A stretch of DNA of 64,000 nucleotides. It comes from Bacteroidota bacterium. GTDB lineage: Bacteria; Bacteroidota; Bacteroidia; Chitinophagales; Chitinophagaceae. The number at the start of each line of letters is the position of its first letter. The first letter of the stretch is position 1. Positions 50,754 to 56,612 of the stretch are shown piece by piece. Below the pieces are notes generated by a model. It made no database searches. It was not told the DNA's origin and saw only the letters and a list, made by a program, of their open reading frames with translations. Location: contig JAFDXL010000010.1 of assembly GCA_018267955.1 (NCBI GenBank), positions 186,001 through 250,000 of the forward strand, written 5' to 3'. The position numbers were made by a program, and so were the translations under genes.

Positions 50754-51356
50754 ATGAGTAAGCCTATACAGATAAACATCCCCAATCCCTGCCACGAGGA
50801 CTGGAACAAAATGACACCAGCAGAGCAAGGCAGGTTTTGTAATAGTTGCCAGAAAACGGTGGTGGACCTTAGAAATTATAGTGATACACAGCTATACAAT
50901 TATATACAGCAACATAAGGGAGAATCTATATGCGGCAGGCTATATGCTACTCAACTAAACAGGAGCATTCACATTCCGTATCAGCCGCATAGCCGGTTGT
51001 ATAGATATTTTATTTGGCTTGGATTAGCCTTGATATTCACACAAGCGCCAACAGAACAATTACATGCTAAAGCCCCGTACACATACAACTCTTTTAATGC
51101 AGCATCTAACGATTCCACAAAAACGAAACGCCGGAGAGCAAAGCACATAAATGACACAACGAAATACTACGTAATTGATGGAAGAAAATATAAGATAGAA
51201 GACATACATCAGCAAGAGATGTCTGGAAGCCTCGAATATGTGGACATTACATTGCCTGGCACACCAGCCAGTAGCAGCGGTACAATCGATAAAAATGTTT
51301 ATGTGCCAAAACCACGGAAAAACGGTCCACGAAATTTAGACCCGGGAAATAAATAG
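50754..51356 (+). CDS. Cys4-module membrane protein, copy 1
   Basis: A 200-aa protein of a family I recognise from other Bacteroidota but cannot name. The N-terminal module is P-N-P-C13-H-E-D-W17-N-K-M-T...G-R-F-C29-N-S-C32-Q-K-T-V-V-D and ends in C60-G-R; four Cys suggest a zinc ribbon. No signal peptide precedes it. One transmembrane span (about 83-99) follows, then a basic linker and a short beta segment (T-K-Y-Y-V-I-D-G-R-K-Y). Topology is probably cytoplasmic Cys4 domain, one span, outer C-terminal tail. It is first in a four-gene operon; the next ORF begins 2 bp after its stop. Confidence 0.75.
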   Translation: MSKPIQINIPNPCHEDWNKMTPAEQGRFCNSCQKTVVDLRNYSDTQLYNYIQQHKGESICGRLYATQLNRSIHIPYQPHSRLYRYFIWLGLALIFTQAPTEQLHAKAPYTYNSFNAASNDSTKTKRRRAKHINDTTKYYVIDGRKYKIEDIHQQEMSGSLEYVDITLPGTPASSSGTIDKNVYVPKPRKNGPRNLDPGNK

Positions 51357-51358
51357 GC

Positions 51359-51931
51359 ATGTCTGAGCAAGTATACATATCACTAATCAATCCATGTGCT
51401 GAAAAATGAAGCGAAATGACATCTACCGAACGCGGCAGGTTTTGCAATAGCTGCCAGAAAACGGTAATCGATTTTACCGGATTTACAGATGCACAATTAC
51501 ATGCGTTCTTCAGTTCTTCAAAATGCAGCAATGTATGTGGCAGGTTTTATGATGATCAGCTCAGCCGGGGAATAGCTGCACCTGCTAAACCACGCAATAG
51601 AGTATACCAATGGCTGTTACAATTGAGTGCCTCATTTCTATTGTTCTCATCACAAGAATCTTCCGCAAAAACTAATCCGCCAACATATACCGCCAGCGAC
51701 ACTACCAGGCAAAACAATAAAGCAGCAATAGAAAAAGAGATAGCAGCAGTAGAGGCTGAACGCCGTGAAATAAAAGATATTAAAGTAGAACGGACAATAT
51801 CACTGGGTGGAGCCTCATCCGAAGGTGCCGTTTACATTATTGATGGTTTTGCCTACGATAAAGATGGCAACAAAGTAAAGTTGCACAGAAGAAACCTTGC
51901 ACGTAGAATATTGGACTGGCTGAGCCGGTAA
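51359..51931 (+). pseudogene. Cys4-module membrane protein, copy 2, interrupted by in-frame TGA
   Basis: Read from ATG 51359, the first 16 codons give MSEQVYISLINPCAEK and match the sister genes, but codon 17 is TGA (51407-51409) where copies 1 and 3 have TGG for the conserved Trp. The frame then goes on without a break through S-E-M-T-S-T-E-R-G-R-F-C-N-S-C-Q-K to 51931. It has a span (about 81-98), a charged helix and Y-I-I-D-G-F-A-Y-D-K-D-G-N-K-V. ATG 51416, three codons later, could restart translation and give 171 aa without the first Cys. It is a nonsense mutation, a reinitiating gene or a sequence error. Confidence 0.7.
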
Positions 51932-51942
51932 AAGTATTTGCT

Positions 51943-52761
51943 ATGAAGAGATCTAAACCGATACAAATATCCATTCCCAATCCCTGCCACGAAGATTGGA
52001 ACAAGATGACACCGGCAGAGCAAGGCAGGTTTTGTAATAGCTGTCAAAAGGTGGTAACAGATTTTACTAGCTTCACAGATGCCCAGTTGCATAGCTTTTT
52101 CAGCGACCGTAGCAAACAAGTTTGCGGCAGATTTTATAACCACCAACTCAACATTCCAATTTCTGTACCACCACAACCTCATAGCAGGCTGTATAGATAT
52201 TTCATAGGGTTTGGCCTTACCCTGTTATTTACACAATTGCCGGAAACAAGATTAAGAGCCCAAACACCGCATGCGCATATAGACCCACAACTTGATAAAA
52301 AAAATAAGAACGAAAATGATACTTCCATAATCATTAAGGGAAAAGTAATTGACGAACTTAAAGAGCCAATGTTGGGAGCAATAGTATCCGCGTATTGCAA
52401 TGGTACCATGGTGGCAGGAACTGTAACAGATTACGATGGCAATTATAAGTTATACATCTATAGCAGCTCACCGAAAAAATATGATCTCGTGCTAAATCAC
52501 ACAGGATATAAACCTAAAAGCGTGCATGACCTGAGTTTAAGCCCCGGTACGACGATTGTTATTGACGCCCGGATGGAAGCAGATACTGTCATAAACAAAA
52601 ATGTCATTACTACCACCGGTTTACCAATAATAATAATGCCCGTAGAACCTAAAAGTTCTGTTATCATGCGTGATAGCCAGGATCAGCCTCCATTGGTCGA
52701 CCCATTTGAACCCAACAAAACTATTATTGATAGCAAGGAGATAGACCACAGGGCACACTAA
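51943..52761 (+). CDS. Cys4-module membrane protein with carboxypeptidase-like domain, copy 3
   Basis: A 272-aa protein. The N-terminal module (C15, C31, C34, C61) is almost identical to copy 1 in protein and DNA. A transmembrane span (about 83-101) is followed by a CarboxypepD_reg-like Ig domain (I-I-I-K-G-K-V-I-D-E-L-K-E-P-M-L-G-A-I-V...G-T-V-T-D-Y-D-G-N-Y-K-L) and a Pro-rich tail. The Ig-like domain should be outside the cytoplasmic membrane. It starts 11 bp after copy 2 and ends 11 bp before the next gene. Confidence 0.78.
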   Translation: MKRSKPIQISIPNPCHEDWNKMTPAEQGRFCNSCQKVVTDFTSFTDAQLHSFFSDRSKQVCGRFYNHQLNIPISVPPQPHSRLYRYFIGFGLTLLFTQLPETRLRAQTPHAHIDPQLDKKNKNENDTSIIIKGKVIDELKEPMLGAIVSAYCNGTMVAGTVTDYDGNYKLYIYSSSPKKYDLVLNHTGYKPKSVHDLSLSPGTTIVIDARMEADTVINKNVITTTGLPIIIMPVEPKSSVIMRDSQDQPPLVDPFEPNKTIIDSKEIDHRAH

Positions 52762-54455: not shown

Positions 54456-55079
54456 ATGTACAAAATGCCTCATTTTACAGAGCAGGACCATGCAGCAGTG
54501 GTTGCATTCATGAAAGCACATCCTTTTGTTACCCTAATTGCAACTGCTAATGATATACCGGTCGCCACGCAAGTCCCTGTGTTGATAGAGGAACGGGACG
54601 GACGCATTGTATTGCGCGGACATATCATGCGAAAGACCGACCATCACCTGGCATTGGAACAAAATCCGAAAGCATTGATACTATTCACAGGGCCACATTG
54701 CTATGTAAGCGCCAGCTGGTACACAGAACGCGGCCACGGCAGTACGTGGAATTATATGACCGTACATGCACGCGGACAGGTAAAATTGATGGATGATGCT
54801 TTTACCTTGCAATTGCTTACAGATCTCACACACAAATACGAGGATACACAGGCTCATCCTGAATTACTAGAACACATGAGCTTGGAACATTATGTGCAAC
54901 CGATGCTAAAGGCAATTGTTGGTTTCGAGATGGAAGTGGAATCGCTCTACCCTATTTTTAAACTCAGCCAAAACAAGGATGCTGAAAGCCATAGGAACAT
55001 CATACAACAGTTGAAAGCAAGGGGTGATTGCGGTAGCATGGAGATAGCGAAGGAGATGGAGAAAAGGAATATTGGATAA
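54456..55079 (+). CDS. PaiB-like FMN-binding negative regulator family protein
   Basis: A 207-aa protein of the PaiB/split-barrel flavin-binding family. It has M-Y-K-M-P-H-F, H-P-F-V-T-L-I, L-R-G-H-I-M-R-K-T-D-H-H, F-T-G-P-H-C-Y-V-S-A-S-W-Y, W-N-Y-M-T-V-H-A-R-G and the C-terminal K-L-S-Q-N-K helix. PaiB was described in Bacillus as a negative regulator, but the fold is that of flavin/heme-binding proteins, so a redox or degradation role is also possible. It ends right before the nested repeat island. Confidence 0.88.
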   Translation: MYKMPHFTEQDHAAVVAFMKAHPFVTLIATANDIPVATQVPVLIEERDGRIVLRGHIMRKTDHHLALEQNPKALILFTGPHCYVSASWYTERGHGSTWNYMTVHARGQVKLMDDAFTLQLLTDLTHKYEDTQAHPELLEHMSLEHYVQPMLKAIVGFEMEVESLYPIFKLSQNKDAESHRNIIQQLKARGDCGSMEIAKEMEKRNIG

Positions 55080-55095
55080 ACTTGTTTTGCCCACG

Positions 55096-55141
55096 CTTGC
55101 CCACGATGCCCACACGCCCACAGCGTGGGCACGTGGGCAAG
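55096..55141. repeat. GCCCAC/GTGGGC hairpin of the left arm
   Basis: Bases 55096-55113 pair with 55125-55141 with a one-base bulge, giving a very GC-rich stem. Confidence 0.75.
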
Positions 55142-55196
55142 ATCATTACAATCAGTGTAAATGAATGATGTTCGAGTTGTTCGCACCTGTTCGACA

Positions 55197-55225
55197 TGTT
55201 CGTTCTTGTTCGCGAACGAACAGAA
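55197..55225. repeat. 29-bp perfect inverted repeat, left copy
   Basis: These 29 bases are the exact complement of 55555-55583. The unit is made of GTTCG/CGAAC pieces and contains the self-palindrome GTTCGCGAAC. Confidence 0.88.
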
Positions 55226-55283
55226 TTCAAATATGAACTCACACCTATATATTGGCCGTACTATTAAGAATTACATAAGTAAA

Positions 55284-55353
55284 TGAATTAAGTATTGTAA
55301 CGTATTTACCGTAACCGGTAATCGTAGATACTGAATCAAGTTCAGCATGACGA
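55284..55353. repeat. 70-bp direct repeat, copy 1
   Basis: Matches 55463-55532 at 66 of 70 positions by eye. It ends in an imperfect palindrome, CTGAATCAAGTTCAG, of the kind seen in dispersed bacterial REP-like repeats. Confidence 0.85.
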
Positions 55354-55367
55354 ATAACTTCCCTGTC

Positions 55368-55388
55368 ATTGCGGGCCTGACCCGCAAT
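55368..55388. repeat. ATTGCGGG/CCCGCAAT palindrome in the spacer
   Basis: An 8-bp perfect inverted repeat (55368-55375 and 55381-55388) with a five-base loop, between the two 70-bp units. Confidence 0.75.
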
Positions 55389-55462
55389 CTACTATTGACG
55401 CAGTCAAGTATTTAATAATACTTATCATAATTAGTATCGCACTAGTAATTATGTATGTGAAT

Positions 55463-55532
55463 TGAATTAAGTATTATAATGTATTTACCGTAACCGGTAA
55501 TAGTAGATGCTGAATCAAGTTCAGCATGACGA
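55463..55532. repeat. 70-bp direct repeat, copy 2
   Basis: Second copy of 55284-55353. In this copy the palindrome TGCTGAA-TCAAG-TTCAGCA (55508-55526) is perfect over 7 bp. Confidence 0.85.
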
Positions 55533-55554
55533 TAGGTTTTCCTATAATCTTATG

Positions 55555-55583
55555 TTCTGTTCGTTCGCGAACAAGAACGAACA
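55555..55583. repeat. 29-bp perfect inverted repeat, right copy
   Basis: Exact complement of 55197-55225. Confidence 0.88.
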
Positions 55584-55672
55584 AAACGAACACGCGAACA
55601 TGATCCTGCTCATTTTGCCCACGCCAACGGTATGGGCATCGTGGGCACGTGGGCAAGCGTGGGCAAAAAATT

Positions 55673-55724: not shown

Positions 55725-56612
55725 TTAAGCAGTAGCTAATTTTTTGCTCATTGCTTCTGCCATTGTTTTGCCAATATCAGCAGGGCTTGCTACTACGCTA
55801 ATGCCACATTCGCCCATGATCTTCATTTTAGCAGCAGCAGTATCATCTGCACCACCGATGATAGCACCTGCGTGGCCCATACGGCGTCCCGGAGGAGCTG
55901 TTTGACCTGCGATGAAACCAACTACTGGTTTGCGCATGTTATTTTTCAACCAGTTTGCAGCTTCTGCTTCCATATTACCACCGATCTCACCGATCATAAT
56001 GATACCATCGGTTTCAGGATCGTTCATCAGCAATTCTACCGCTTCTTTGGTAGTAGTACCGATGATCGGGTCGCCACCGATACCGATAGCTGTAGAGATA
56101 CCCAGTCCTGCTTTTACCACCTGGTCAGCAGCCTCATAAGTAAGCGTACCTGATTTTGATACGATACCGATACGGCCCGGTTTGAAGATAAAGCCCGGCA
56201 TAATACCTACTTTAGCCTCACCTGCTGTGATAACGCCCGGACAGTTAGGGCCTATCAGGCGGCAGTCTTTACCCCTAAGGAAATCACGAGCCTTTACCAT
56301 ATCCTGTACAGGAATACCTTCTGTGATACAGATGATCACTTTAACGCCAGCATCCGCAGCTTCCATAATAGCATCTGCAGCAAATGCAGGTGGCACGAAG
56401 ATGATAGACACATCAGCGCCTGTTTTATCTACCGCATCCTTTACGGTATTGAATACAGGACGATCCAGGTGCGTAGAACCACCTTTACCCGGTGTGATAC
56501 CGCCAACTACGTTGGTACCATATTCTATCATCTGTGTAGCGTGGAAAGTTCCTTCAGTACCGGTAAAACCCTGTACTATGATCTTGGAGTTTTTATTAAC
56601 TAAAACAGCCAT
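55725..56612 (-). CDS. sucD: Succinyl-CoA ligase (ADP-forming) subunit alpha
   Basis: A 295-aa TCA-cycle subunit. The CoA-binding N-terminal domain has [12 protein letters not shown] and P-G-K-G-G, a middle segment [10 protein letters not shown], and the phosphorylated His is in G-H-A-G-A-I-I-G-G. sucC is not adjacent, as is usual in Bacteroidota. TATTTTTG at 56643-56650 (minus) is a likely -7 element, and a terminator follows the gene. Confidence 0.96.

Follow-up and report, generated by a model that had tools for sequence, protein, structure and literature searches.

The alpha protein of phage P4 is an initiator with two separate iteron arrays (ori and crr), one of which lies near its own gene, and it is a fused primase-helicase of a different sequence family from the RepA-like proteins considered here. 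Earlier work on cargo has reportedly been carried out on Tn7-like elements. The Cch2 protein of SCCmec, by analogy with the Rep protein of SaPI, is described in the available part of the source as binding, through its C-terminal domain, repeats that are located just downstream of its own gene (PMC7581432). In the Vibrio cholerae satellite PLE, the DNA-binding domains of RepA covary with the origins, and these origins are cut by a RepA-mimicking phage nuclease, as far as the accessible text of that report goes (PMC8263062). The replication of excised IMEs, according to the corresponding part of a review, had no studies at the time of its writing (PMC5704250).

We describe here an island of short repeats found in a 64,000-nt stretch of DNA (the window) from a Bacteroidota bacterium of the family Chitinophagaceae, together with related loci in its genus. 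The island has mirrored arrays of short units around a core without genes, and it is probably a RepA-less member, either non-autonomous or relic, of a cassette family in this genus, in which the complete cassettes have the order RepA-HTH gene, array, cargo gene, and second array. What is new here is the second, mirrored copy of the array around exchangeable cargo, plus the existence of cassettes without RepA.

The likeness to SaPI Rep and SCCmec Cch2, in what the available text describes, lies in a helicase-type ATPase with a C-terminal DNA-binding part, short repeats after the stop codon, and a nearby primase gene (PMC7581432). In contrast, the protein of this genus is of the AAA_25 type with a very short HTH, and its site is a mirrored, hairpin-like array whose second copy encloses cargo and which also exists in RepA-less copies. 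As in PLE, the DNA-binding domain of the initiator and the repeats of the origin covary and are swapped as a module, whereas the PLE iterons are semi-palindromes of ~30 bp at one origin, and the accessible text describes no cargo between two origin copies (PMC8263062). Mobilisable elements of the Tn4555 type in Bacteroides (CP103138.1, NZ_CP103154.1) encode a homologous AAA_25-HTH ATPase (~44% identity), followed by a DUF6371 protein, and have a TGTCCC array at the repA end, the helix being GKSTVNRII; unlike in the genus, one array is seen, no cargo lies between arrays, and integrase and mobilisation genes are present. This TGTCCC array lies inside the repA reading frame, past the HTH codons (L231 ~1008-1070, CP103138.1), and its presence with a homologous ATPase in a Bacteroides plasmid element indicates an old array, linked to replication genes. 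REPIN/BIME and MITEs also have inverted palindromic repeats that are non-coding, nested and found at several sites, but the arms in this genus track the helicase HTH and enclose host or defence genes, and no Y1 transposase was found in three array-rich species. Integron cassettes are similar in having one gene, variable cargo and a palindromic site shortly past the stop, whereas the sites in this genus are mostly mirrored pairs. A literature search, which covered few subscription papers, found no description of array-bracketed defence cassettes.

Structure of the island

Two convergent genes, one for an FMN-binding protein and the other sucD, flank the island (Table 1). The three repeat classes in mirror order that a preliminary description had noticed in this DNA are all present. 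The arms are two nested pairs of short-unit arrays, with TGCCCA outside (the GCCCACG of that description) and TGTTCG inside (its GTTCG), and each array consists of direct units ~8-10 bp apart, then a loop, then inverted units, the right-hand arrays mirroring the left-hand ones. The outer arms (55085-55130 and 55623-55668) are complementary at 78% over 46 nt, and the inner arms (55188-55225 and 55555-55592) at 92% over 38 nt. The perfect inverted repeat of 29 bp reported earlier was recovered, against a longest perfect inverted repeat of 14 bp in 1000 dinucleotide shuffles. In the same number of such shuffles, TGTTCG/CGAACA, present in 11 copies in the island, has a mean of 0.44 and a maximum of 3, and GCCCAC/GTGGGC, present in 10 copies, has a mean of 0.14 and a maximum of 2. 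The interior had been described as gene-less, and indeed no ORF of at least 80 aa lies wholly within the island; one minus-strand ORF of 80 aa (55000-55242) overlaps its left edge. A search of the window's own genome for each arm class, as proposed earlier, found the triple-unit patterns restricted to the island (5/5 and 3/3 matches for the two classes). An Rfam scan of the window gave nothing at gathering thresholds.

Table 1. Positions of the repeats of the island and of its flanking genes in the window
Feature	Position	Strand	Remark
Flanking gene, FMN_bind_2 family	54456..55079	+	Stop codon 5 nt from the island edge
Outer left array, TGCCCA class, direct units, loop and inverted units	55085..55141	+	DNA hairpin fold, z -6.0
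Inner left array, TGTTCG class, five direct units and one inverted	55169..55222	+	Weak fold, z -0.9
Left arm, perfect 29-bp inverted repeat	55197..55225	+	Partner 55555-55583
Gene-less core, 328 bp	55227..55554		Opposite orientation in sister species G010
First 73-nt direct unit, REP-like, terminating in a TGCTGAATCAAGTTCAGCATGAC-type palindrome	55281..55353	+	Kin elsewhere in G010
REP-like palindrome TCATTGCGGGCCTGACCCGCAATC	55366..55389	+	11 other short matches in own genome
Second 73-nt direct unit	55460..55532	+	93% identity to the first
Right arm, perfect 29-bp inverted repeat	55555..55583	-	Partner 55197-55225
Inner right array, TGTTCG class, mirroring the inner left	55558..55600	-	Mirror image of 55169..55222
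Outer right array, TGCCCA class	55613..55668	-	DNA fold, z -2.7; best match 49/53 to a RepA-linked G010 array
Flanking gene sucD, succinyl-CoA ligase alpha type (CoA_binding, Ligase_CoA)	55725..56612	-	Convergent

The two central direct units of the preliminary description were found as well, although they are 73 rather than 70 nt long and a third REP-like palindrome lies between them; their starts are 179 nt apart. The palindrome is dispersed in the own genome, relatives of the direct units occur elsewhere in G010, and we read the central REP-like repeats as passengers of the island. Elsewhere in the same genome, positions 1300-6200 of L047 (G000:C9, ~232.3-237.2 kb) hold other intergenic repeats (CCGTCATGCCTTGCCCCGACAAGGCATCTAC, TCCTCCCCTTTAGGGGAG and TGCGGGTCAGGCCCGCAATGAC) packed into a dense mosaic, with periods of ~290 bp in part, which is found on both sides of a few genes. 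Another feature of the window is a tandem cluster of paralogues at 50754-52761, composed of three consecutive plus-strand ORFs (200, 171, and 272 aa) with shared N-terminal wording, such as TPAEQGRFCNSCQK and ERGRFCNSCQK.

The island in related genomes

The sample comprised 15 genomes of the genus, G000 being the window's own genome and G001 to G014 its congeners. The sister species G010 has the same island in the same place, with the arms and flanks in the same orientation and the core inverted, as the two cores are 91.5% identical when one is inverted versus 75.7% in the same orientation. Among the 14 genomes with sucD sequence, own genome included, arrays at this site were seen in the fetched flanks of G000 and G010 only, the G009 locus being cut short. 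In G003, the same gene pair is separated by 52 nt, versus 645 nt in the window, and the divergence of this gap is too great for any target duplication to be read; since the empty gap belongs to a more distant congener, the island may have been lost in G003.

When compared with the 20 arrays linked to RepA-like genes, the outer arms have their best match in a TGCCCA array of G010 (49/53 and 46/51) and the inner arms in a TGTTCG array of G008 (39/42 and 40/47). The order of TGCCCA outside and TGTTCG inside occurs at two further sites (phoH side and L121), making three independent sites in all, which are too few to prove a rule; a random scatter of the classes without recurrent nesting, the outcome that the preliminary description had set against its own reading, was not seen. 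That description had left three options, namely elements inserted into one another, a single non-autonomous mobile element whose terminal inverted repeats are compound, or a structured locus such as a recombination site, and the second fits best, given the recurrent nesting, the gap in G003 and the related arms around different genes. A second gene-less compound island, with TGCCCA/TGCTCA/TGTTCA/TGTTCG arms around a 420-bp core, is located in G007 (L087 2626-3507) and, G010 aside, is the locus most like the window island.

RepA-like helicases and their arrays

A RepA-like protein, in which the Pfam models identify an AAA_25 ATPase with a C-terminal HTH, is encoded by 20 genes in 10 of the 15 congeneric genomes, with no match in G000, G014, G003, G013 and G001. 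An array begins within about 14 nt of the stop codon in all 20 genes, with a unit that varies by gene. The family hence has the features of an initiator helicase, that is, an ATPase with a C-terminal DNA-binding domain and a short-repeat array directly downstream of its gene (20/20). In 18 of these loci, a further array of the matching class, with units in both direct and inverted orientation (one of each in L196), comes after the next gene, the exceptions being L185, with three genes and an array read by eye, and L200, with direct units only. In the structure model of one RepA the C-terminal HTH is confidently predicted, although the mean pLDDT is only 65.7, and the fold of the model matches DnaB, T7 gp4, and KaiC; searching PDB sequences with the RepA profile yielded a single weak match, in the HTH part. 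The island has no initiator gene to go with its arrays, its own genome having no RepA-like match, and for this reason it is not itself classed as a replicon and may be inert.

In homologues from outside the genus, the array is mostly single and lies between RepA and a primase-like gene, without cargo. Nine stretches of viral contigs fit the RepA-like pattern and none was confirmed, while in phage records RepA-like matches occur in three human-gut records labelled Bacteriophage sp. (query cover 79%, 79%, and 43%). Many DUF3987-type genes (L233-L251) have a palindrome within ~20 nt of the stop, with units differing by gene, and the DUF3987-type proteins with a basic C-terminal tail would be a parallel family. 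Arrays with an 8-bp pitch sometimes bracket other genes, for example a SIR2-type gene in L098.

The relation between protein and array was analysed in 35 proteins, comprising the 20 of the genus, 14 of 27 out-of-genus matches, and one Bacteroides plasmid protein, in a helix-unit table made by hand with both sides known. The other 13 out-of-genus matches were excluded because no symmetric array was seen, or because the gene was cut or repeated; inverted units are few or lacking in L216, L196 and L219, and L216 was retained with direct units only. The similarity of the nine-residue recognition helix follows that of the array unit with a Mantel r of 0.742 (0/10000 permutations as high), and the partial r is 0.755 given ATPase identity, versus 0.063 for ATPase identity alone. 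In the set of 24 TGYYCN units, base 4 is C wherever the helix has Lys at position 2 (10/10) and T wherever it has not (14/14); Gly at helix position 3 follows a weaker rule, being present for 5/5 TGC units, yet for 6/19 TGT units too. G010 has two RepA copies whose ATPase parts are 95.8% identical and whose helices and units are both different. The adjacency of arrays to RepA genes and the covariation of helix and unit make it most likely that the arrays are cognate initiator sites and candidate origins, and the arms of the island are very probably cognate sites of RepA-like helicases.

Array pairs and exchange of cargo

Summed over the 15 congeneric genomes, a loose pattern of three TGYYCR units matched 194 times, and the reversed control 14 times. 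G011 and G012 have RepA-like genes and few TGYYCR arrays, because the array units there are of other classes. A strict 52-nt geometry with all hexamer classes allowed gave 9 matches in 5 stretches in a collection of 84,980 species, with the window's own genome perhaps outside it, and these matches come from four congeners (G007, G002, G004, and G009) and from no other record in that scan. In a survey of 117 genomes of the family, only G111, besides G000, clearly exceeds the control (44 vs 2). The 44 matches of G111, which belongs to another genus of the family, are an 8-bp TGCCCAAC-type repeat.

For the pair test, 15 of 44 loci, those with short loops or an 8-bp pitch, were set aside, and of the 29 that entered 23 were scorable. 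The innermost left and right array classes agree in 20 of these (the misses are L046, L100, and L117), and with one locus per site the agreement is 13/14 versus 4.1 expected by shuffling (0/20000 shuffles). Asymmetric arrays have their unit-rich side outward, 13 to 2 on the left and 17 to 2 on the right.

Between paired arrays in the genus there is usually a single gene, in many cases for a predicted antiphage effector, and a second array of the same class follows most cargo stops by 0-14 nt. In a PADLOC scan that covers 15 RepA-linked cargo proteins, with five further ones outside it, 10 match at E 1e-5 or better, in the classes bSEFIR, TIR-type, ThsA-like SIR2, Old/GajA-like, AbiU, and Fic; 2/5 other cargo proteins also match (TIR-TM and ThsA-like SIR2). 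Among ten window genes used as a control there is one match, an ABC-type ATPase, and consequently the two ATPase cargo calls are the softest. The labels given by eye to L101 (HEPN) and L046 (PH-like) were dropped, as neither has a Pfam match.

Cargo replacement is seen at several sites. At one of them, G002 and G006 are ~90% identical through the flank and RepA until 137 nt before the RepA stop, after which the HTH, array and cargo differ, and identity returns at the outer end of the right array, the break points of the exchange falling at the HTH codons and the arrays. The loci L190/L191, as well as L196/L197, have a unit in common and are alike through the left array, then have unrelated cargo. 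At the phoH side site, G002 and G009 have a common 145-aa gene (75%), G002 with a second one, and G006 has an unrelated gene of 235 aa; in G007, which has one flank in common, no gene of at least 110 aa was found. At the radical-SAM site, G002 has a RepA, whereas in G009 and G006 arrays occur with other cargo and no RepA; G002 and G006 share one 61-nt array without any difference. These states with and without RepA at a single site indicate that the RepA-less cassettes belong to the same family. In another comparison (L084 2991-5886 vs L102), in G010 one extra unit, made of an ORF and a right-hand array, separates the left array from the gene that G000 also has, an apparent stepwise gain or loss of a cassette.

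Proposed explanation and alternatives

The evidence at the level of sequence comprises the anatomy of the island, class matching, RepA adjacency, HTH-unit covariation, cargo replacement, states with RepA present or absent, and core inversion. From this, we infer that RepA-like proteins bind the arrays and that the arrays are origins. Each cassette would be bounded by two mirrored copies of a short-unit array, which a RepA-like ATPase of the hexameric-helicase type with a C-terminal HTH would bind and probably use as its replication origin. The window copy would correspond to a cassette with two nested specificities, TGCCCA outside and TGTTCG inside, with a REP-like core and no cargo gene, and the enclosed DNA may be moved, swapped or flipped, either by a helper RepA that acts on the two arrays or through recombination of one array with another.

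It is a tentative suggestion that the arrays actively serve cargo exchange, and plain homologous recombination between arms would explain much. In an equally speculative extension, defence genes would be exchanged in a modular way: mirror-duplicated origin arrays would border interchangeable, mostly one-gene cassettes, an HTH-to-hexamer code would separate lineages, and RepA-less cassettes would stack concentric classes for different helper RepAs, so that the order of layers may record successive helpers and the window island would be a two-key cassette.

A serious competing explanation, to which we give a little less than an even chance, is that the arrays are origin relics acting as portable homology, with both exchange and core inversion due to ordinary RecA-dependent recombination between repeated arms and no dedicated mechanism. 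The inverted repeat of the inner arms, perfect over 29 bp and near-perfect over 38 bp, would suffice for rare homologous inversion, and the break points sit in repeated arrays; however, such recombination alone leaves unaccounted for the second array of the same class directly past most cargo stops, as well as the class-matched mirrored pairs kept in RepA-less arrays.

An improbable explanation is a MITE-like transposon, in which the arrays are terminal inverted repeats recognised by a further transposase. As in MITEs, terminal inverted repeats flank a non-coding core, and the empty gap in a congener, the multiple sites and the nesting agree with such an element, but no transposase lies within or adjoining the island and the unit tracks the helicase HTH. 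The Y1/RAYT transposase was rejected as the mobiliser, since Y1_Tnp (PF01797), present in 10/15 genomes, has no match in the array-rich G002, G006, and G005. With a similarly low probability, the arrays are operators or boundaries of a defence operon, and RepA-HTH bound on both sides controls cargo expression by looping. The left array does lie just before the cargo start and the right one just past its stop, with one class per locus, yet in the out-of-genus homologues and in a Bacteroides element the array lies between RepA and a primase-like gene with no cargo, and many cassettes have no adjacent RepA.

It is less probable again that the arrays are transcription terminators acting in both directions, or other RNA hairpins where genes converge: arrays often come after stop codons and the outer arms fold well as single strands, but the four arrays of the window have no T-run within 15 nt in either direction, which does not fit an intrinsic terminator, and the strength of a hairpin does not explain unit classes that track the HTH. 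Finally, a functionless pile-up of low-complexity repeats by chance or slippage, which the short units and the dispersed REP-like repeats of the core might suggest, is most improbable, as a chance origin of the arms is ruled out by the dinucleotide shuffles and the class matching, and the strict 52-nt geometry is, in the collection scanned, confined to four congeners.

Implications for the Bacteroidota

The reading of the arrays as cognate sites of RepA-like helicases gives a testable rule, according to which each gene for a RepA-like initiator ATPase in Bacteroidota elements would have an array at its end, and about nine residues would suffice to read the specificity. Class-matched array pairs would also be a new place in which to hunt for antiphage genes. 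Moreover, the spread of small cassettes without a visible integrase, the swapping of their cargo and their survival without a helicase are made testable.
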